DNA from: Streptococcus merionis DSM 19192
Lineage (GTDB): Bacteria > Bacillota > Bacilli > Lactobacillales > Streptococcaceae
DNA length: 64,000 nt
Direction of reading: 5' to 3'
Assembly: GCF_000380085.1 (NCBI RefSeq)
Contig: NZ_KB904539.1
Span: 62,001 to 126,000, forward strand
This document shows, one piece after another, positions 39,188 through 47,374 of this stretch. The first letter of the stretch is position 1. Every line of letters begins with the position of its first letter. The position numbers and the translations under genes were made by a program. The notes beneath the pieces are model-generated. The model saw only the letters and a program-made list of their open reading frames with translations. It searched no databases and was not told where the DNA came from.

Positions 39188-39214
39188 TAAAAACCAGCCA
39201 ATTTAGCTGGTTTT
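39188..39214. terminator. Terminator of the small peptide gene
   Basis: AAAACCAGC and GCTGGTTTT with a 7-nt loop, bordered by A and T runs so that it can work on both strands. It begins 5 bases after the stop of the minus-strand peptide gene, as expected for a short monocistronic transcript. Confidence 0.75.
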
Positions 39215-39218
39215 AGTA

Positions 39219-39335
39219 TTATTGCTGGTTAATACCAGGTTTTGGAGGTGTTTCAACACCTCCAGAAGTTGTAATCACATCTTCTTTTTCAAAAGTGACA
39301 GTCTTAAACTCGGGTTTTTGATAGTCTTTTGTCAT
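39219..39335 (-). CDS. Candidate RiPP precursor peptide (38 residues)
   Basis: A short gene with every expression signal: RBS AAAGGAG 6 bases before the ATG, a TTGACA/extended-TAGACT promoter (39369-39397) and an intrinsic terminator directly after the stop. The 38-residue product has a leader-like start (YQKPEF at residues 5-10), an acidic stretch (EKED at 16-19) and a hydroxyl-rich patch VITTSGG (20-26) followed by a Pro-rich polar tail ending in Gln. The YxKPxF motif resembles the YxxPxL recognition motif of lasso-peptide leaders, which bind PqqD-like proteins. It is divergent from an operon with two PqqD-like domains, a kinase and sugar enzymes. I infer a precursor modified on Thr22, Thr23 or Ser24. 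No homologue search was possible. Confidence 0.75.
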   Translation of the reverse strand: MTKDYQKPEFKTVTFEKEDVITTSGGVETPPKPGINQQ

Positions 39336-39368
39336 AAAAAACTCCTTTTACTAATTTAATTTACCTAG

Positions 39369-39397
39369 AGTCTATCATATAATAAATGGGTTGTCAA
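39369..39397 (-). promoter_or_regulatory. Promoter of the peptide gene
   Basis: On the minus strand: consensus TTGACA (39397-39392), 17-nt spacer ending in TGA, then TAGACT (39374-39369), that is, an extended TGn -10. The start codon lies 33 bases downstream. Confidence 0.7.
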
Positions 39398-39481
39398 GAA
39401 CTACTGCAAAAAAACAGATTAAATACAGAAGGGGTCTGCATTTTTTAGCAGGTTCAACCTATGAGAGCATCTTGATGCTCC

Positions 39482-39510
39482 TTGAATTTACCTCTGTTTT
39501 TGTGTATAAT
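39482..39510 (+). promoter_or_regulatory. Promoter of the modification-enzyme operon
   Basis: TTGAAT, 17-nt spacer, perfect TATAAT (39505-39510), 33 bases before the glycosyltransferase ATG. The two divergent promoters are about 85 bases apart (-35 to -35). Confidence 0.75.
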
Positions 39511-39543
39511 AGGAGAACAGGTTCATTGAAAGTGAGGAGAAAA

Positions 39544-40749
39544 ATGTACATAATCACCTGTACAAAAGCTAGCCTGCGCTATCGTTGGGAAAGCGAGGTG
39601 CTTCTAACGAATCTTCAAAAGCACGGGTCATATGACATTATCTTCCTGCTGTATGGAGAGGATCGTTCCATGGGCCCTTACTTACAAGAAAAGTACGGAA
39701 TCAGTTATTACCATTTTGAAGATAATCGCTCTCAAAAACAGTATCCAACCTCTATTCGCCCCTATCTCTGGTATCAATTTTTAAGCCAACATCCCCAGAT
39801 GGAAAAGGAAGTTTTCTTTTACATAGACACAGATATCATTTTTCGAGAAATGATTGCTTTTGACAAGATCCCTGTTGATGCTCAAAATTGGTATGGAGCT
39901 GATAGTTATTGCGTGAAAGCAAGTTATTTGCGAGCTAAGCATCCCCTTTATTTACAGGGGCTGCAAACTATTTTATCTGTGACAGATGAGGAATTGAAGT
40001 GGACAGAAGATAGCCCAGCCGGTGCACAGTGGCTTATTGCTCAGCCAACAGCAGCTTTTTTTAATGAAATGTATGTGCATTGCGAACGCGTCTATGACTT
40101 TCTAGTCACCATGGAACGGATTCCACATTTACAAAAAGAGGAGCGATTAGAAGAGTATGGAAAATGGTTGACAGACATGTGGTGCATGGCATGGTTGGCA
40201 CCTAAATACGGCATTACTGTTCATATATCATCTGAATTGGATTTTTCATGGCCAACTTATTCCGCTGAGCATTGGGAGCGCTATAAGATACTCCATAATG
40301 CAGGAGTCACTAGTGAAAATGCAGATGCTTTTTACAAGGCCAAATGGACACATATTCCTCCTTTCTTTTTTAATCATGATAACGTCTCTTCTAAACTTGG
40401 TTCCATTTATTACGTAAAGGCGGTACAAGCTGTGACTATCAGACCACAAGACTACGATAAGGTTAAAATCCTAGGAACTTTTATTACTAATCAGGTGAAA
40501 GACACCTATATTGCGATTCCTTTGGATGAGGCAAAGCAAAAAGTTTCTGGCTACATTGAACTCAACGACAGTAGCTATTTGCTTTGGACATTGATTCAAG
40601 AAAAGGGTTCTATACAAGAAATTATTGAAGCTTATAGTCAAACCTTTGAGATTGAGAAAGACCAAGCCAAGCAAGATTTATTTGATTTTATCGCATATTT
40701 GGATACGATGAAGATTATTCAGTTTGAGTGTGGAGTTAGCACTGATTAA
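39544..40749 (+). CDS. GT-A-type glycosyltransferase fused to a PqqD-like domain
   Basis: 401 residues. The N-terminal 310 or so resemble a nucleotide-sugar transferase: VFFYIDTDIIF near residue 93-103 gives the DxD metal site, and a second half with ELDFSWPTY and IPPFFFNHDN follows. The last 80 or so residues (NQVKDTYIAIPLDEA, then LLWTLIQEKGS, then AKQDLFDFIAYLDTM) look like a PqqD/RRE winged-helix domain that binds peptide leaders. A natural fusion of transferase and recognition domain would bring the enzyme to the precursor. Start: ATG at 39544 behind GTGAGGAGAAAA; the longer reading begins upstream of the promoter and is rejected. Sugar and acceptor are unknown. Confidence 0.75.
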   Translation: MYIITCTKASLRYRWESEVLLTNLQKHGSYDIIFLLYGEDRSMGPYLQEKYGISYYHFEDNRSQKQYPTSIRPYLWYQFLSQHPQMEKEVFFYIDTDIIFREMIAFDKIPVDAQNWYGADSYCVKASYLRAKHPLYLQGLQTILSVTDEELKWTEDSPAGAQWLIAQPTAAFFNEMYVHCERVYDFLVTMERIPHLQKEERLEEYGKWLTDMWCMAWLAPKYGITVHISSELDFSWPTYSAEHWERYKILHNAGVTSENADAFYKAKWTHIPPFFFNHDNVSSKLGSIYYVKAVQAVTIRPQDYDKVKILGTFITNQVKDTYIAIPLDEAKQKVSGYIELNDSSYLLWTLIQEKGSIQEIIEAYSQTFEIEKDQAKQDLFDFIAYLDTMKIIQFECGVSTD

Positions 40750-41002
40750 GTTAGAAAATTTCCCTTGTTTTAGAATGGCGTAGGCAGTGATTGAATGACT
40801 GTTTTGCCCACTTCTACAGAACCTAACATTTCTATTTTTGCTGGTCAAAAAAACGTTGGTATCAGCATTTCGGATTTTCACAAATAGGTTTTTAGAGGTG
40901 TCCTTTTCAAAAATGCCTAAAGTTAATAAGTTTTAACGGGAGACGTTAAAGGGCTCAAAATCATTATTTAGCGTTTTCCTCACTAATGAAAGGATGTTGT
41001 AT

Positions 41003-41674
41003 TTGACAGCACAGTCGTTTATTGCGATTATCACTGCAAGAAGTGGTTCAAAGGCGCTACCTAATAAAAATATTCAAAAAGTAGGAAATCGGACGCTGAT
41101 TGAAATCACTGCGGAAGAAGCTCTTGCTTCTGGTATTTTTTCTGAGATTGTCTTTTCAACGGATTCCGAGGAGTATGCAGAAATCCTACGTCCTTACGGT
41201 GTTACAATTGACTTACGTCCCCAGTATCTTGCTGAGGATACCACGCCACATTTGGATACACTACGCTATGTCTTACGGCGTTATCCAGATCATCAGGATT
41301 ATATGCTTTTACAACCGACTTCTCCATTCAGACGGGCAGAACATATGATTGAAGCATATAAACTATATCAGACGGGACAATTTGACAGTGTGGTCAGTTT
41401 TACTCAGGTTGATAAGCCAACACGCCTAATCACACGCTTAGTTGATGATAAGCCTGTTGATATTTATGGTAATGACAAGGCTTACACGCGCCAAGGTCAA
41501 GAAAAAGAGTACACCACAAACGGTGCTATCTATATCTCATCAAAGGGAAACTATCTGAAAAAAGGCTCCTATTTGGATGAACATTGCGGTGTCTATCTGA
41601 TGAATAAGCGTGACTCTCTCGATATTGACGATGAGATAGATCTGCTGCTAGCAAATGTTTTAAACAACCAGTAA
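41003..41674 (+). CDS. CMP-sugar synthetase (acylneuraminate/Kdo-type cytidylyltransferase)
   Basis: 223 residues of the CMP-NeuAc synthetase-like family: ITARSGSKALPNKNI near the N-terminus is the CTP-binding signature, EIVFSTDSEEYAEI and MLLQPTSPFRRAEHM follow in family order, and NGAIYI is near the C-terminus. It should activate a nonulosonic acid or related 2-keto sugar as its CMP derivative. No sugar-acid synthesis genes are adjacent, so the substrate must come from elsewhere. Start is uncertain: TTG at 41003 has GAAAGG at 9-nt spacing, while the ATG at 40994 sits directly on that site. The 250 bases upstream contain no other gene. Confidence 0.8.
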   Translation: MTAQSFIAIITARSGSKALPNKNIQKVGNRTLIEITAEEALASGIFSEIVFSTDSEEYAEILRPYGVTIDLRPQYLAEDTTPHLDTLRYVLRRYPDHQDYMLLQPTSPFRRAEHMIEAYKLYQTGQFDSVVSFTQVDKPTRLITRLVDDKPVDIYGNDKAYTRQGQEKEYTTNGAIYISSKGNYLKKGSYLDEHCGVYLMNKRDSLDIDDEIDLLLANVLNNQ

Positions 41675-41732
41675 ACCCAGACAACTATTGCGTCGAATAG
41701 GTCAAACTAGAAAAGAAACGAGACGGAGTATT

Positions 41733-41802
41733 TTATACGTAATCTTTAACGATTATACGCTTTTGTGATGAGGGGAAGCCGTCATGGTGGTCTGTTTCAG
41801 CC
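41733..41802 (+). repeat. Dispersed repeat family V, copy 2
   Basis: TTATACGTAATCTTTAACGA, CTTTTGTGATGAGGGGAAGCC and GTCATGGTGG match, with scattered changes, the copy at 14751 and the inverted copy at 56233. It lies between the cytidylyltransferase and kinase genes, inside the candidate RiPP operon. Confidence 0.55.
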
Positions 41803-41878
41803 GCATTAGATTTGATTTCATACGTTAAGAAGCCAAAATTTTTAGACATAGATACCCTAAAAGGATCAGGAGGAAACA

Positions 41879-42631
41879 GTGGAGCGATTTCGTATTGGTT
41901 TGGCAGGTCTGGTGATCCAGATAACTTGCCGTTTTGATTCAACACGGATATTTTGCAAAGATTACCTAACGGATGCTGAACCTGATTTTGAAATCAATGT
42001 TGAGCAGAAAGACATTGACTTTGAGCGAGCAAGAGGCGGTGAAAAAGCTCGGCATTTTTCAGGAAACTATTTAGAACAAATTGCCTTATATCGATTGATC
42101 TGCGAAGTATTGCCAGCTTATGATCGACTACTCATTCATGGGTCGGCAATCGTATTAGATGATCAAGCCTATTTATTTACAGCACCAAGTGGAACAGGGA
42201 AATCAACTCACAGCCAGCTATGGCTGAAAGTCTTTGGTGATAGAGCCCGTATCTTAAACGATGATAAGCCCTTGTTACATATCACAGGTGAGCAAATTTT
42301 GATCTATGGAACGCCTTGGGATGGGAAACATAGTAGGTCTTACAATGGTTCTGCGCCATTAGAAGCCATCTGTTTTTTAAACCAAGGCTTAGAAAACGCG
42401 GCTATCCGGTTATCTGAAACAGTTGCTTTTGATGCTTTGGTAACGCAAACTTACAGACCCCTGCAATCAATTGACCAACTGAAAAAAACATTAGCTTTGC
42501 TGCAAAAAGTAAGCCATCTACCGACTTACCAATTAACCTGTACGATCTCTACAGAAGCGGTAGATGTTATTTACGAGAAAATGACACATAAAAATCATTC
42601 CAACAAAATAAACAACAACGAGGAGAAATAA
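41879..42631 (+). CDS. HPr-kinase-related kinase
   Basis: 250 residues. A Walker A loop APSGTGKSTHSQ lies at 102-113, followed by RILNDDKPLL, typical of the HprK/PEPCK-like P-loop kinases found in peptide-modification clusters (the paeninodin lasso cluster uses one to phosphorylate a C-terminal Ser). It lacks the N-terminal domain and the P'-loop context of true HPr kinase. The family N-terminus (FRIGLAGLVIQI) supports the GTG start at 41879 behind ATCAGGAGGAAACA. It ends one base before the PqqD gene. It may phosphorylate Ser/Thr of the precursor, which the nucleotidyltransferase could then elaborate. Confidence 0.8.
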   Translation: MERFRIGLAGLVIQITCRFDSTRIFCKDYLTDAEPDFEINVEQKDIDFERARGGEKARHFSGNYLEQIALYRLICEVLPAYDRLLIHGSAIVLDDQAYLFTAPSGTGKSTHSQLWLKVFGDRARILNDDKPLLHITGEQILIYGTPWDGKHSRSYNGSAPLEAICFLNQGLENAAIRLSETVAFDALVTQTYRPLQSIDQLKKTLALLQKVSHLPTYQLTCTISTEAVDVIYEKMTHKNHSNKINNNEEK

Positions 42632-42632
42632 A

Positions 42633-42902
42633 ATGAAGTTAAAAGAAGGGATCTTGCGCCATCACGATCGTAACGATGAGTATATTGGCGTTACAACAGG
42701 AGATTTGGCAGAAACGTTCAATGGCATGATTCGCTACAATACGACAACCCATTTCATTTTAGAAAAACTTCAGGCTGATACTACAAAAGAAGAATTAATT
42801 ACTAGCCTTTGTCAAGAATATGATGTCACTCCTACAGAAGCCAGTGCTGACTTGACGCCATTACTTCAAGAATTGACGACGCTGGGTTTATTAGAGAAAT
42901 AA
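42633..42902 (+). CDS. Stand-alone PqqD-family peptide-recognition protein
   Basis: 89 residues with the PqqD layout: an N-terminal beta-hairpin (short Gly/Asp-rich strands up to TGDLAETFNGM), then helices FILEKLQADTTKEELI and a final LTPLLQELTTLGLLEK. PqqD-like proteins chaperone RiPP precursors by binding their leaders. This one sits next to the kinase, as in HPr-kinase-related peptide systems. It is the second PqqD-like unit of the cluster, the other being fused to the glycosyltransferase. Last gene of the rightward operon, with RBS GAGGAG and a terminator after it. Confidence 0.82.
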   Translation: MKLKEGILRHHDRNDEYIGVTTGDLAETFNGMIRYNTTTHFILEKLQADTTKEELITSLCQEYDVTPTEASADLTPLLQELTTLGLLEK

Positions 42903-42916
42903 ACTAAATATAGAGT

Positions 42917-42960
42917 AAAACACTGAAAATAGGGAAGCGGCCCTTGTTTTCAGTGTTTTT
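42917..42960. terminator. Bidirectional terminator between the two converging cluster operons
   Basis: AAAACACTGAAAA pairs with TTTTCAGTGTTTT (13 bp, loop of about 17) with T runs on both strands. Confidence 0.85.
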
Positions 42961-43070
42961 AGATTACGTGACTTTAAGCCGTTTTATTGGTTAGGCAATA
43001 TTTTCTCAAAAGTGGGAAGGGTAACTAATTGTTTTTCAACTTCCTGACTTTTTAGTGAGCTTTTAATTGT

Positions 43071-43997
43071 TTACGGGCGGTTTTGGCTGTTGGTAAGCTG
43101 CTCTGTATAAATCACACGTTTTTCTTTAACCTTTGTGATTCCTTCAATAGAAGAAGACATTAAGGTTGCAGCCACATCAAACGAAGTTGAAAGCCGTAAA
43201 TCAATCATTTCCATCGGTGTATATCTCGGTAAAATCGTTACCTCCGGAATTCCATGATAGTCAAGATCGTCTCTTGGATGCGGCTTGAGGTAGACATGAT
43301 AACCTGCCTCTTTTGCTTCTTGGGCCATCTTAAAGTAGAAGTAGTACTGCTTTGCATAATCCGGACTTTTATCTTCTTTTTTGAAAGTAGACCAAAAATC
43401 GTCAGCTAAAGGCTGAGTTAAAATCAGATAAGACGGTGAAATAAGATTAATATCTTCTACTTGATAAAGCGCAAATAACTTTTTCAGATGGGTTTCTTCC
43501 TGACGCTCAAACAATTCTCTACGAGGGACTTCAATAAATTTGTCCAAAAAACGGGCGTAGAAGCTGTTATCTTTAATCTTACTAATGTCATTAACTTCAA
43601 TATCCAAACAAGCCGGGTTGAATCCGTAATGTTCTAGAGAAGAATCAACATCTGATAAGCCAGCGAGTTGGGCATAATGATAGTGAAAATTTAAACCGTC
43701 TTCTATTAGATGGTAAGGGTATTTTCTATCCCGAAATTCCTGACCAACCTGATCAGCATCATTAAAAAGATAAACATGATCCTCTTCTTCAAGCCAATCA
43801 AAATACTGCTTGGTCTGAATGATTTTGCCTGTTAGAATTTCAACCCAAATATCAGGGAAAAATGCTTTTATACGCTCCGCTAATTCTTGATGTCCACGAA
43901 CATTAAAATGGAGAAAGAGCGCTATGGATTCTCCTTTTTGTTTTTTCATCAAGGAAATCATAACTTGCATATTGGTAAAACAAATATATTTTTTCAT
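43071..43997 (-). CDS. Sialyltransferase-like (GT52/polysialyltransferase-type) enzyme
   Basis: 308 residues with the three marks of bacterial GT-B sialyltransferases: an E-D-G motif (YHLIEDGLN, about residue 98), an H-P motif (YLKPHPRDDLDYHG, about 252) and a Ser pair near the end (TLMSSSIEGI). Such enzymes use CMP-activated sugars, which fits the CMP-sugar synthetase of the opposite operon. The likely acceptor is the peptide or a sugar already on it. After the TAA at 43071-43073 the same frame stays open for 28 further protein-like codons to 42984, so the protein may be C-terminally truncated. No signal peptide, so it acts in the cytoplasm before export. Confidence 0.7.
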   Translation of the reverse strand: MKKYICFTNMQVMISLMKKQKGESIALFLHFNVRGHQELAERIKAFFPDIWVEILTGKIIQTKQYFDWLEEEDHVYLFNDADQVGQEFRDRKYPYHLIEDGLNFHYHYAQLAGLSDVDSSLEHYGFNPACLDIEVNDISKIKDNSFYARFLDKFIEVPRRELFERQEETHLKKLFALYQVEDINLISPSYLILTQPLADDFWSTFKKEDKSPDYAKQYYFYFKMAQEAKEAGYHVYLKPHPRDDLDYHGIPEVTILPRYTPMEMIDLRLSTSFDVAATLMSSSIEGITKVKEKRVIYTEQLTNSQNRP

Positions 43998-44020
43998 CGT
44001 GGCTCCTCTTTATTTAAGCG

Positions 44021-45130
44021 CTATTTTTCTTTTTTCCGGCTTAGTAAACATACTGCTAATGAAAAATTTCGCCATCTTTTGGATGTTGGAATCAAGCGAT
44101 AAAGATAAAAGAGAGGCAAAAGATAACGATGCTTTTGCAAGGTAGGAAAACGCAACTGCATCGTCTTTACCGGAGGAAAGAAGCGCTCTTTCCAGTAGAG
44201 CCATTGATTGCCATTAGAATAGTTTACCTCATTGATAATCTGGTTTTCCATCAAACCATAGGTACCGGATGACAACATGTAGGAAAGGACGTTTCTGTCA
44301 TCATCTGTCAAGTCAGTCAAAGAGACGGCGTGTGCCCCAAATAATTTAAAAGCCAATTTTCGTTGTTGCTGTTCAAAGTCAGTCAGGTTGAGTTTAAACA
44401 ACTCTTTCTTGATATAACTCCAATCTAAGTTGTCGTACTCAGTTTCTAAAAATAAGAAAAGATCAACCAAGCTACGGATACCAGTCCCTGATTGCGAATA
44501 ATGTTTGTAATCATGAAGCATTTGATAGAGATAAAAATCTTCCAAGCTGAAATGGTAAGCAAAGGGCCTATCTTGATCTGGCAGGAGACGAGATTTGACA
44601 TCATCATAATAATCACTATCTATTCTACTCAGCGGATCTATTAACTTTCGATGCATTTCGAAATGAAAAATAGGCTTTTTCATATAAGCATCAACATTAA
44701 TTTCATAGGTAAAGCTATATCCCTCTTCTGTGAAAAAATGCTTAACTTCTTTTTGAAAGGATTCATCAAAGAGAATATCATTATCGGACATCTCACGCAT
44801 CCCTAGTTTGGGATAATAGGTTTTTAAAAGAATGCCCTTTAATTCCATATACCAAATTCCTGAACGGCTTAGCCATTGGGTTATTTTTTGACGTTCATGA
44901 TCAAACAGTAATTCTCTTCGAATACCTTGATTTTTAGCTTCTTGAAGCTCCTTTGGTAGTTCAATATAGTCTTCTAGAATCATTGCTACCATAGCAGATA
45001 GACTATGAAATTGAGCAAACTGAGCAAGATTTTCTAAGTTCATCTTTGCTATGATGTCATGATTAATCGGCTTTCTTTGAAGGTAATACCTTAATAAATA
45101 GATGATATCTTCGTGTGTTTTTGAAAACAT
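44021..45130 (-). CDS. Nucleotidyltransferase family protein (PF14907 type)
   Basis: 369 residues. The core motif ELKGILLKTYYPKLGMREMS followed by DNDILFD (about 115-140) is the hallmark of the NTP_transf_5 group, whose members recur in lasso and related RiPP clusters beside HPrK-like kinases. In the paeninodin-type clusters it is thought to add a nucleotide or modify the phosphorylated peptide (not firmly established). A second conserved block, YQMLHDYKHY, lies near 205. The gene lies 11 bases after the ABC exporter gene and 23 bases before the sialyltransferase-like gene. Confidence 0.78.
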   Translation of the reverse strand: MFSKTHEDIIYLLRYYLQRKPINHDIIAKMNLENLAQFAQFHSLSAMVAMILEDYIELPKELQEAKNQGIRRELLFDHERQKITQWLSRSGIWYMELKGILLKTYYPKLGMREMSDNDILFDESFQKEVKHFFTEEGYSFTYEINVDAYMKKPIFHFEMHRKLIDPLSRIDSDYYDDVKSRLLPDQDRPFAYHFSLEDFYLYQMLHDYKHYSQSGTGIRSLVDLFLFLETEYDNLDWSYIKKELFKLNLTDFEQQQRKLAFKLFGAHAVSLTDLTDDDRNVLSYMLSSGTYGLMENQIINEVNYSNGNQWLYWKERFFPPVKTMQLRFPTLQKHRYLLPLFYLYRLIPTSKRWRNFSLAVCLLSRKKEK

Positions 45131-45141
45131 ATTCTTTCTTC

Positions 45142-46845
45142 CTAACTGTGTTTGGTATGCAGTGCTATTTCAGAGTCTGAAAAATGCAGTTGTTTGTTAC
45201 ATATTTCTAGGGCAGCTGGTCTATGGGTTACAATAATGATCGTTTTATCTGTCAGAGCTTTCATATTTTCTAAAATAGCTTTTTCAGTCTCTTCGTCTAA
45301 AGCACTGGTTGATTCATCTAGTACCAAAATTGGCGATTGAGAATAGATAGCACGTGCTATTGACAAACGCTGCAATTGACCTTCTGATAAACCTGAACCA
45401 TCCTCCCCTAAGACAAAATCCAATCCTTGAGGAAGTTGCTCAACCAGTTCACGTGCACAAACCAAATTAAGTGCCTGCCAAAGACGGCTTTCTTCTTCTG
45501 CAGTCAAACTGTCAGAAAAGGTAATCACTTGACGAATTGTTCCAACCATGAGGAGCTTCACTTGGGGGACATAGGCAAATAAACGATGAAAGCTCGAATC
45601 TAAGGCTACTTTTTCCCCATTTGTCAGGCGTAAGAAAAGTTCTCCCTTTTGAAGCTCATAGATGGAGAGAAGCAATTTAGTCAGAGTACTTTTCCCACAG
45701 CCGGATGGACCTAAGAAAGCAATATAATCTCCTTTTTGAATCTCAAATTGAATATTTTCCAAGAGTTTTCGATCTGTATAAGAAAAACTTGCTTGTTCAA
45801 AAACAATAGCATCAAGCTTTCTATAAAATTTTGTAATTTCGGAATGTGTCTTCAACTCTGTTTTCAGAACTTTAAGCTCTTCTACTTCCATTAAGCGTTC
45901 GCAACTAACTAACATGGAATAAAAACTCGGAATATAGACAGTTGCATTTGCAAATGGGTAACTAACTTGGGTAACCAAGCGAGTAATCGCTATAAAAGTC
46001 CCATAAGACATCGTTCCGATATAAATGCCGTAGGCACAGTAAACCGCTACGAATAGGTAGGCTAACTCTAGAACAGCATTGAGACCTGTAATGTTGATGT
46101 TGGAGAATGTAGCCTGTTCTAATCTGGCTTTTTTGTGTTCATCCAAATACTGTTGAGCCTGTTTAGTCACTTTTCTCTGAAGAGAGAAGGCATTAATCAC
46201 TAAGAGACTGCTCAAATAATCCTGATAGAAGACTTGCAGTTGACTAACTTTTTTTTGGATATTATGGTATAGATAACGCAGCTTTAATTTTAATCCCAGA
46301 CCAATCATAATATAAAGCAGTCCCATCAGAAAAATGAGCCATAAAAATTTGCTATCAATATAGCCCACCATCAGTAGAACCGCAAAGAGTTTGCTAAAGA
46401 TACCAACTAAACCTGGGACGATTGTAGCCACGCCTCGTGAAATGATACCAGTATCTGATGTAAGGCGGCTAAGCCATTCGCCAGTGTGGATTTGAGAAAT
46501 GGCTTGGAACTCCCTTTGAAGCAGAGTCGTCAATAAGTAAGCCTTAAGATAGTTTTCAATATTAGCTTTAGTTGCTTCTTCCTGATAACGTTGTAGCGAT
46601 TGAAGGATGAGTTGAGTAAGTACAATCATCAGGAGCATCATGGCTGAAAACCAAAAAAACTGACTATTTTTTGAAACAGCCGCATCAATGATATTGCGAA
46701 AGTAAACCACAAATACGACTGATAAAACGGATAGAACCAATTCTAAAGTACAGAGTAAAGCAACCTGTAATTTGTAAGACGTAGGTAAAGTGAAAAATAA
46801 CCATGTCAAGATTTTTTTAAGAGACAAGCGTTGTAAATCTTTCAT
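45142..46845 (-). CDS. ABC exporter (membrane domain plus ATPase)
   Basis: 567-residue half-transporter expected to work as a homodimer. Six membrane segments (about 20-310), then Walker [10 protein letters not shown], signature LSEGQLQRLSIARAI and Walker B ILVLDESTSALD with catalytic Glu. There is no N-terminal C39 peptidase domain, so leader removal must come from another enzyme, plausibly the S26 peptidase encoded upstream, which overlaps this gene by 4 bases (ATGA). Likely exporter of the modified peptide. Confidence 0.88.
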   Translation of the reverse strand: MKDLQRLSLKKILTWLFFTLPTSYKLQVALLCTLELVLSVLSVVFVVYFRNIIDAAVSKNSQFFWFSAMMLLMIVLTQLILQSLQRYQEEATKANIENYLKAYLLTTLLQREFQAISQIHTGEWLSRLTSDTGIISRGVATIVPGLVGIFSKLFAVLLMVGYIDSKFLWLIFLMGLLYIMIGLGLKLKLRYLYHNIQKKVSQLQVFYQDYLSSLLVINAFSLQRKVTKQAQQYLDEHKKARLEQATFSNINITGLNAVLELAYLFVAVYCAYGIYIGTMSYGTFIAITRLVTQVSYPFANATVYIPSFYSMLVSCERLMEVEELKVLKTELKTHSEITKFYRKLDAIVFEQASFSYTDRKLLENIQFEIQKGDYIAFLGPSGCGKSTLTKLLLSIYELQKGELFLRLTNGEKVALDSSFHRLFAYVPQVKLLMVGTIRQVITFSDSLTAEEESRLWQALNLVCARELVEQLPQGLDFVLGEDGSGLSEGQLQRLSIARAIYSQSPILVLDESTSALDEETEKAILENMKALTDKTIIIVTHRPAALEICNKQLHFSDSEIALHTKHS

Positions 46846-47300
46846 TTCCCTATCATCTTTCTTTTAAGTTTAGAGAGTTGCTGGCGAAGAAGCATTAATG
46901 GTTTACGAACCCAGAAGCTGTGTAACCAGACCAGAACATAAGCTTGGTAAATCTTGCTATCTGTTGACAACCATTTCCCATTTCGATAAATTTTTGTTAC
47001 ATAGCCAAACACGTATTCTCGTGGTACTTTTTCACCAGACACACAGTTGTCCCCGCGCGTGTAGTAATAATCATCATCTGAAGCAATGAGACGATGCAGA
47101 ACTAGCTGACCATTGGATTGTTTTTGGAAAATAGGAATATCACCGATGGCTAGCTGATGATGCGTCAGCGGTTCTAAATAAATTTGGGTGGCTTTCGGAT
47201 GGTTCTTGTCGTACAAGAGCGGACGCATACTAACTCCTTGGGTAAAATAAATGATCGATCGTCCCGCTTCTAATTCTTTTCGAATAAGTGAGTTATGCAC
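46842..47300 (-). CDS. S26 signal-peptidase-like protease (SipW/ER type)
   Basis: 152 residues from a GTG start with GCGAGGAC 7 bases upstream; a TTG-initiated form from 47360 (172 residues) is possible but has no RBS. Catalytic Ser24 is in FTQGVSMRPLL. The second catalytic position is His69 in QLVLHRLI, where bacterial type I enzymes have Lys, so this is the Ser-His SipW-like kind. The conserved RGDNC motif follows, then YVFGYVTKIYR and a hydrophobic C-terminal helix. S26 peptidases recur in HPrK/PqqD-type peptide clusters and may trim the leader or cleave during export. Confidence 0.75.
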   Translation of the reverse strand: MHNSLIRKELEAGRSIIYFTQGVSMRPLLYDKNHPKATQIYLEPLTHHQLAIGDIPIFQKQSNGQLVLHRLIASDDDYYYTRGDNCVSGEKVPREYVFGYVTKIYRNGKWLSTDSKIYQAYVLVWLHSFWVRKPLMLLRQQLSKLKRKMIGK

Positions 47301-47374
47301 AATTCTGTCCTCGCTGATGTGATTGTTGATATTAAAAATAGTTTTTTGGGGGGCCTGCAATGCCTGCTTCTAGG

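Follow-up and report, generated by a model that had tools for sequence, protein, structure and literature searches.

The 64,000-nucleotide stretch of the Streptococcus merionis DSM 19192 genome analyzed here (contig NZ_KB904539.1, positions 62,001 to 126,000; hereafter the window) carries, between glpK and pepQ-ccpA, a block of nine genes that encodes a candidate pathway for a ribosomally synthesized and post-translationally modified peptide (RiPP). The genome comprises 2.36 Mb in 24 contigs. The gene for a 38-residue precursor peptide (39219..39335) lies on the minus strand and is followed on the plus strand by genes for a glycosyltransferase (GT) fused to a PqqD-type RiPP recognition element (RRE) (39544..40749), a NeuA-like CMP-sugar synthetase (40994..41674), an HPrK-like kinase (41879..42631) and a discrete PqqD/RRE protein (42633..42902). 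A convergent minus-strand operon encodes, in order, an S26-type leader peptidase (46842..47360), an MsbA-like ABC exporter (45142..46845), a PF14907 protein (44021..45130) and a GT52/polysialyltransferase-like enzyme (43071..43997). An earlier sequence-only reading had listed these nine genes as a RiPP system, and the open reading frame (ORF) list and Pfam confirm each of them where it was placed. The fusion gene more likely starts at ATG 39544, the start used in both of its relatives described below, than at the mechanically called TTG 39391; the peptidase start is probably later than 47360, as the orthologues have 152 and 151 amino acids. A hairpin with a T run 3' of the peptide gene (39190..39214, minus strand), read by eye, is the likely terminator.

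Searches of genome contigs with the fusion as query returned one relative, with 92% identity, in Cricetibacter osteomyelitidis (Pasteurellaceae; locus L002). Surveys by taxon found the full fusion in two of 284 genomes of the window's genus, its own and G181 (75% identity; locus L006), and in one of 140 Pasteurellaceae genomes, again Cricetibacter. It is absent from 397 other genomes sampled in the phylum, eight of which match C-terminal residues 266-395 only; among 395 genomes of the order, besides its own, 13 have the GT part only and two the RRE part only. The three clusters have a common gene order except for the NeuA-like gene, which is present in the window only, and each has its two GTs enclosed by the peptide genes on one side and the peptidase gene on the other. 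Nucleotide identity to the window is 94% in two segments of the Cricetibacter block (4.2 kb and 1.15 kb) and 86% in the 1.6 kb that hold its peptide and fusion genes; for the G181 block it is 71-72%. The Cricetibacter block, flanked by PBP1B and by ErpA and methionyl aminopeptidase, has a tetranucleotide correlation of 0.87 with the flanks of the window cluster and 0.58 with its own, and a G+C content of 0.361 versus 0.438 and 0.396. Composition and identity thus point to acquisition of the block by a Pasteurellaceae chromosome from a donor resembling the window's genus.

The precursor peptides support a RiPP. The window peptide, single copy in its own genome, has a predicted leader of residues 1-22 (Y5xxP8xF10 ... 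E18DVIT22) and a predicted core TSGGVETPPKPGINQQ. Its N-terminal region recurs in ten further ORFs beside the fusion at the two syntenic loci, six in Cricetibacter (L002 7624-9727) and four in G181 (L006 12381-13110). Eighteen of the first 24 residues, including Ser24, are invariant in 11/11 precursors, as is YxxP, and variable cores follow this conserved 24-residue region. Over leader codons 2-24, the nonsynonymous rate (dN) is 0.02-0.06 and the synonymous rate (dS) 0.16-0.64 between the window and Cricetibacter, and 0.15-0.19 and 0.67-1.80, respectively, between the window and G181; the N-terminal region is under purifying selection. Since it recurs in ten ORFs with dN far below dS, the window peptide is not a chance ORF, and the RiPP interpretation is well supported. 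AAAGG precedes the start codon of every precursor gene, extended to AAAGGAG in eight. The sequence-only reading had regarded the lack of a conserved peptide, or transferases found only in polysaccharide loci with no PqqD partner, as grounds for abandoning a RiPP; peptides and a discrete PqqD protein accompany the fusion in all three clusters. The cores are Pro-rich, and ten of the 11 lack Cys. A TP motif occurs after Ser24 in ten cores, at the same position in nine, a count of ten that was reached by one of 10,000 shuffles (shuffle mean, 3.6).

The one core that lacks TP, encoded at L002:8427-8558, has two cysteines (NSYCGTTNPLYDGCDNTDR), and a single leader may therefore serve chemically different cores. 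The Cricetibacter precursors sit in repeated units of about 380-430 bases each. The non-coding parts of these units are repeated too (L002:7440-9845), and the array may therefore grow by unit duplication. Beside the G181 array, 53 bases (L006:12154-12206) are 74% like the start of an intact precursor gene, have no ATG in place and may be a decayed fifth copy.

Five of the remaining proteins form a recognizable core. The HPrK-like kinase has no Pfam match, nor do the HPrK-like proteins of other genomes (8/8 scanned), and ScmC and HprK_rel_A hidden Markov models match it below threshold only. An upstream His (His87), a GTGKST P-loop and an NDDKP-type Asp129 are nevertheless invariant in 11/11 aligned sequences, an alignment that uses seven ORFs from L060-L070 and leaves out others there. 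Searched against the PDB, the kinase profile ranked PEPCK (0.058) ahead of HPrK (0.27), with P-loops of ABC proteins in between. The HPrK-like kinase proposed in the sequence-only reading keeps these sequence features and has no family match above threshold, and it is the weakest label of the nine. Matches to HPrK-like proteins were also seen in three plasmid records. The discrete RRE matches PqqD (PF05402, 2.3e-11), and a ten-row mixed RRE profile matched TfuB1 (5.7e-9), TbiB1 (1.2e-8) and PbaB1 (6e-5) in the PDB, followed by 9x8z (LppB; 3.5e-3). The single RRE sequence gave mainly TAL repeats there; these were taken as chance matches and were superseded by the profile search. The exporter exceeds the cut-offs for ABC_membrane (PF00664) and ABC_tran (PF00005) and matches MsbA_lipidA (1.8e-58) below its equivalog cut-off, with no peptidase domain among its Pfam matches. 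The peptidase has no meaningful Pfam match. It resembles archaeal-type signal peptidases (sigpep_I_arch 2.6e-5, below cut-off), a six-row profile built from this protein and related ones hits SEC11 (1.2e-3), and Ser44, His89 and Asp104 are kept in 6/6 aligned sequences. The fifth protein matches PF14907 (NTP_transf_5) at 1.3e-37 in the window, and the family is present in L002 and L006 as well; we take the NTP transferase of linear polyphosphorylated peptide (LPP) clusters, and presumably PsmN, to be PF14907 proteins, and propose a PsmN/LppN-like role here.

LPP were described from the lpp cluster of Paenibacillus alginolyticus in May 2026, and the class is defined by a signal peptidase I (SpI), a discrete RRE, an HprK-like kinase, an NTP transferase and an MsbA-like exporter (PMC13381572). 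In experiments, LppK phosphorylated core Ser3, the site at which LPP carry multiple phosphates; the RRE bound YxxP, and LppS cut after T-1 in dependence on F-3, E-2 and T-1. Deletion of lppN changed nothing visible; the authors suspect that a partner, encoded elsewhere than in the core, was missing, and the final product is unknown (PMC13381572). The window cluster resembles LPP in encoding a discrete RRE, an NTP transferase, an MsbA-like exporter, an archaeal-type SpI-like peptidase and a putative HPrK-like kinase, in a YxxP leader conserved ahead of a variable core, and in having no cyclase. The invariant V20-I21-T22 can be matched to F-3/E-2/T-1 of LppA, so that cleavage is predicted after Thr22 (VIT|TS) and the core would begin T-S, with Ser24 at core position 2. 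The window cluster differs in the addition of the GT-RRE fusion, the GT52-like enzyme and, in the window, the NeuA-like enzyme, none of which is described for LPP in the available part of that report, and the fusion clusters carry up to six precursors, versus one to three there (PMC13381572). LPP are called Bacillota-restricted in the same source, whereas one cluster here is in Pasteurellaceae. Of the LPP precursor motif YxxPxVLxHQxIxFETxxS, the part VLxHQxIxFETxxS is not found and E-D-V-I-T-T-S stands instead; because the rest of the leader consensus is missing, we call the cluster LPP-like and do not file it as an LPP member. The lasso peptide systems of paeninodin and pseudomycoidin, for which phosphorylation and hexosylation of Ser are reported, also have an HPrK-type kinase, an RRE and a nucleotidyltransferase-like protein, but the leader motif has Tyr here, not Trp. 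The sequence-only reading, which did not name LPP, knew of no described system of this composition; the core resembles that of LPP (PMC13381572).

The C-terminus of the fusion (39391-40749 ORF) contains a PqqD domain (Pfam 1.6e-10), and no Pfam family matched its GT domain (about residues 1-300). A structure model of the fusion (predicted local distance difference test [pLDDT] score 76) has good confidence over most of residues 1-250 and a low-confidence stretch at 300-340. The modeled GT domain aligns with UGGT (VIA-align Z 15.9, 242 residues, root-mean-square deviation 4.1) and glycogenin (Z 15.8, 223 residues, 3.3), with LgtC also among the matches (Z 15-16). By this model, the domain has a GT-A fold of GT8/GT24-like type and keeps a DTD motif, its family not being assignable by sequence. 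UGGT, glycogenin and LgtC all use UDP-hexoses. Relatives of the GT domain are encoded in 119 viral-contig stretches (80 kept), among them Enterococcus phages with 33-37% identity over the GT domain and the DxD motif kept; alignments covered ten of the 80 kept viral loci and, separately, eight of the 13 GT-only genomes plus L024. The Enterococcus phage relative has 290 residues and no RRE, and its gene lies one gene before a head-closure gene. The full fusion is absent from the viral contigs searched, and a plasmid search gave eight records, all of them GT-domain relatives only. In Enterococcus faecium plasmid pF39_2, which is rich in phage genes, a GT-domain homologue (L024:12001-12876) lies directly 3' of the major capsid gene; such phage homologues (L024, viral loci L073-L152) may glycosylate a virion protein. 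RRE-glycosyltransferase fusions were predicted before by RRE-Finder (PMC7470986), and PF00535 fusions have been reported (PMC12710340). In the available parts of these papers they are listed as domain architectures, whereas here a GT without a Pfam family occurs together with precursors, a kinase, a second GT and a peptidase.

This second GT, the 43071-43997 protein, exceeds the Pfam cut-offs for both Glyco_transf_52 (3.2e-12) and A-2_8-polyST (5.5e-6). In bacterial sialyltransferases, a D/E-D/E-G motif carries the catalytic base and HP binds CMP (PMC4202792, PMC5517516). The window enzyme has EDG (residues 99-101), HP (240-241) and SS (281-282); both families over cut-off and the EDG and HP motifs are kept in 3/3 orthologues, so the protein has the profile matches and motifs of a putative GT52/GT38 sialyltransferase. 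No GT52-like enzyme was present in the plasmids or viral contigs searched.

The NeuA-like protein (40994-41674) matches CTP_transf_3 (PF02348, 2.7e-21), and its best solved structure is the CMP-Neu5Ac synthetase 1eyr (3.6e-28, query residues 9-225). From its sequence it is assigned to the CMP-nonulosonate synthetase family (NeuA, PseF, LegF) as NeuA-type; its PseF equivalog score of 112.7, below the 205.7 cut-off, does not fix its sugar specificity. The sequence-only reading had treated this enzyme as a member of the cluster in general, which does not hold: the gene is missing from both relatives and falls within a stretch of about 1.1 kb (40760..41835; blastn junctions) without counterpart in L002 or L006. 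Because the more distant G181 also lacks it, the most plausible reading is that the window lineage acquired it. It is the single PF02348 match of the window genome, in which no NeuB (PF03102) was found; G181 and Cricetibacter each have PF02348 and PF03102 genes at loci outside the cluster. PF02348 is common: G110, which belongs to the window's genus too, has it, as do 11/14 control genomes. A nan-type region elsewhere in the window genome encodes NanE, solute-binding proteins, permeases, a DHDPS-family lyase, a ROK kinase, an RpiR regulator and a YhcH-type anomerase (below equivalog cut-off); from this neighborhood, the lyase, kinase and transporter are read as sialic-acid-specific. The organism could thus take up sialic acid and seems unable to make it, so that the simplest candidate donor is CMP-Neu5Ac derived from sialic acid that was scavenged.

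We consider it probable that a dedicated module for leader-guided glycosylation was added to an LPP-like RiPP cluster to give this block. Computation shows how the cluster is conserved and distributed, how leaders and cores evolve, which domains are present and that transfer took place; the chemical steps, their sites, the sugars and the order are what we infer. The pathway would begin with the binding of the leader YxxPxF by both the discrete RRE and the RRE of the fusion. The HPrK-like kinase would phosphorylate Ser24, which is invariant and lies close behind the cleavage site, and the fused GT-A enzyme would use a UDP-sugar to add a hexose to the core, with Thr29 of the recurring TP as the most likely acceptor. 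The GT52-type enzyme would then cap this hexose with a nonulosonic acid from a CMP-sugar, and the PF14907 protein would add a sugar or nucleotide to the phosphate. Finally, the Ser-His signal-peptidase-like enzyme would cut after Thr22 and the ABC pump would export the linear core. CMP-Neu5Ac would probably be made in the window organism by the cluster NeuA-like enzyme from sialic acid taken up via the nan region; the other two hosts have NeuB and NeuA family genes elsewhere in the genome. A phosphorylated and glycosylated peptide, possibly with a sialic-acid-like sugar, as the sequence-only reading had suggested, best fits the gene content. More tentatively, and at somewhat under even odds, the cluster may represent the first RiPP family to bear a nonulosonic (sialic) acid, attached through an RRE-fused, leader-guided GT and a sialyltransferase. 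In the window organism, a NeuA recruited to the cluster would activate scavenged sialic acid; the product would be an exported phospho-sialoglycopeptide on a TP-x-P core resembling a mucin-type site, and the precursor arrays would diversify behind a single leader and pass between a Gram-positive genus and Pasteurellaceae. Neither a sialylated RiPP nor a link between an RRE and a sialyltransferase was found in the limited library of literature searched.

Several observations weigh against this pathway. The GT52 family has mixed donors and includes alpha-glucosyltransferases. The GT52-like enzyme matched no sialyltransferase in the PDB by sequence, and its structure model, built from two sequences, was unusable and unused (pLDDT 33.8). 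The HP motif occurs in beta-Kdo transferases too (PMC5517516), and SpsB bears such motifs yet is dispensable for legionaminic acid transfer (PMC7439481). Only one of the three clusters holds the NeuA-like gene, within the window-unique stretch, and no PF13088 sialidase was found in the window genome or G181, so that the window organism would need another source of free sialic acid. The kinase matches below threshold, the core without TP and the unmatched remainder of the LPP leader motif count on the same side, as does the fact that the cluster is known from three genomes, through its genes alone.

The alternative that survives best, which we consider possible and distinctly less probable than the LPP-like pathway set out above, builds the sugars on phosphate and not on Thr. 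The kinase would act on Ser24, the PF14907 protein would put a hexose on the phosphate, and the GT-RRE fusion and GT52-like enzyme would extend it. The invariance of Ser24 fits this arrangement, as do the action of LppK on a core Ser near the cleavage site and the lppN deletion without effect, for which a missing partner is suspected (PMC13381572). PsmN, moreover, is reported to place hexoses on phospho-Ser, although the review leaves a host enzyme possible (PMC9266682). Such a model has no need for the TP that ten of the 11 cores keep, and PF14907-type proteins also occur at loci without a GT homologue (L007, L062 and L066). One of these, L007:6891-12057 in G110, has the kinase, RRE, S26, ABC and PF14907 core with a candidate peptide (MKNTYTSPLVEVVTFDQNDIVVNLATSGETIGEVQLEGDAE). 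More broadly, a phylum survey found nine other genomes of 398 with HPrK-like matches (E 1e-10), giving 11 stretches with no GT, GT52 or CMP-sugar synthetase homologue (phmmer 1e-3); HPrK-like, RRE and S26 homologues occur together in seven of the 11, and leader-like peptides were seen at L062 (KKIYEKPVIEIEIFEIEDIITSSG) and, weakly, L060 (KELYEEPVIEIVHFQPEDIITNDS; E 0.26).

Slightly less probable again, and on balance unlikely, is a GT52-like enzyme that uses a UDP-sugar, in which case the phospho-glycopeptide produced would lack sialic acid and the NeuA-like gene would be a neighbor by chance. The mixed donors of GT52, the absence of the NeuA-like gene from 2/3 clusters and the unconfirmed structure of the enzyme agree with this explanation. 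That 3/3 orthologues keep both sialyltransferase motifs and exceed the cut-offs of two Pfam families argues for a CMP-sugar donor; a PF02348 gene in all three hosts, the only one of the window lying inside the cluster, points the same way, yet most control genomes also have one.

That the transferases serve a surface polysaccharide pathway, as chance neighbors of a plain LPP-like cluster, is very unlikely. LPP clusters can lie in glycosyltransferase-rich loci (PMC13381572), but here one GT is fused to an RRE, both lie between peptides and peptidase in all three clusters, the block is bordered most closely by glpK and pepQ-ccpA in the window and by PBP1B and ErpA in Cricetibacter, and it is common to two phyla as a unit. 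A lasso or other cyclized RiPP with its cyclase elsewhere in the genome is the least probable: the leader YxxP and the RREs resemble lasso systems, but the nine cluster proteins (the rest of the genome was not searched) include no lasso (macrolactam) cyclase or B2 protease, a Ser-His signal-peptidase-like enzyme is present instead, and the cores are Pro-rich.

The LPP-like cluster is compact, without capsule genes in the flanks checked, and it offers candidate partners for the LPP NTP transferase. Three further features make it open to testing: a glycosyltransferase that carries its own RRE, a ribosomal peptide that may bear sialic acid, and the occurrence of an LPP-like cluster outside Bacillota. 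Glycocins are likewise glycosylated secreted peptides, as is proposed here, and differ from a system with ten of 11 cores Cys-free and a kinase and RRE core. About 0.6 kb from the G181 cluster, L006:4024-4626 encodes a protein that looks secreted and contains a 28-residue repeat (NGDTRLAGYLYSRGLTNNDYGNEEKHDY) in six copies. In G058, of the same genus, L037:7056-12600 encodes two short peptides, an Asn_synthase protein (2.9e-24), a PqqD protein (2e-13) and ABC proteins, and is likely a lasso peptide cluster.

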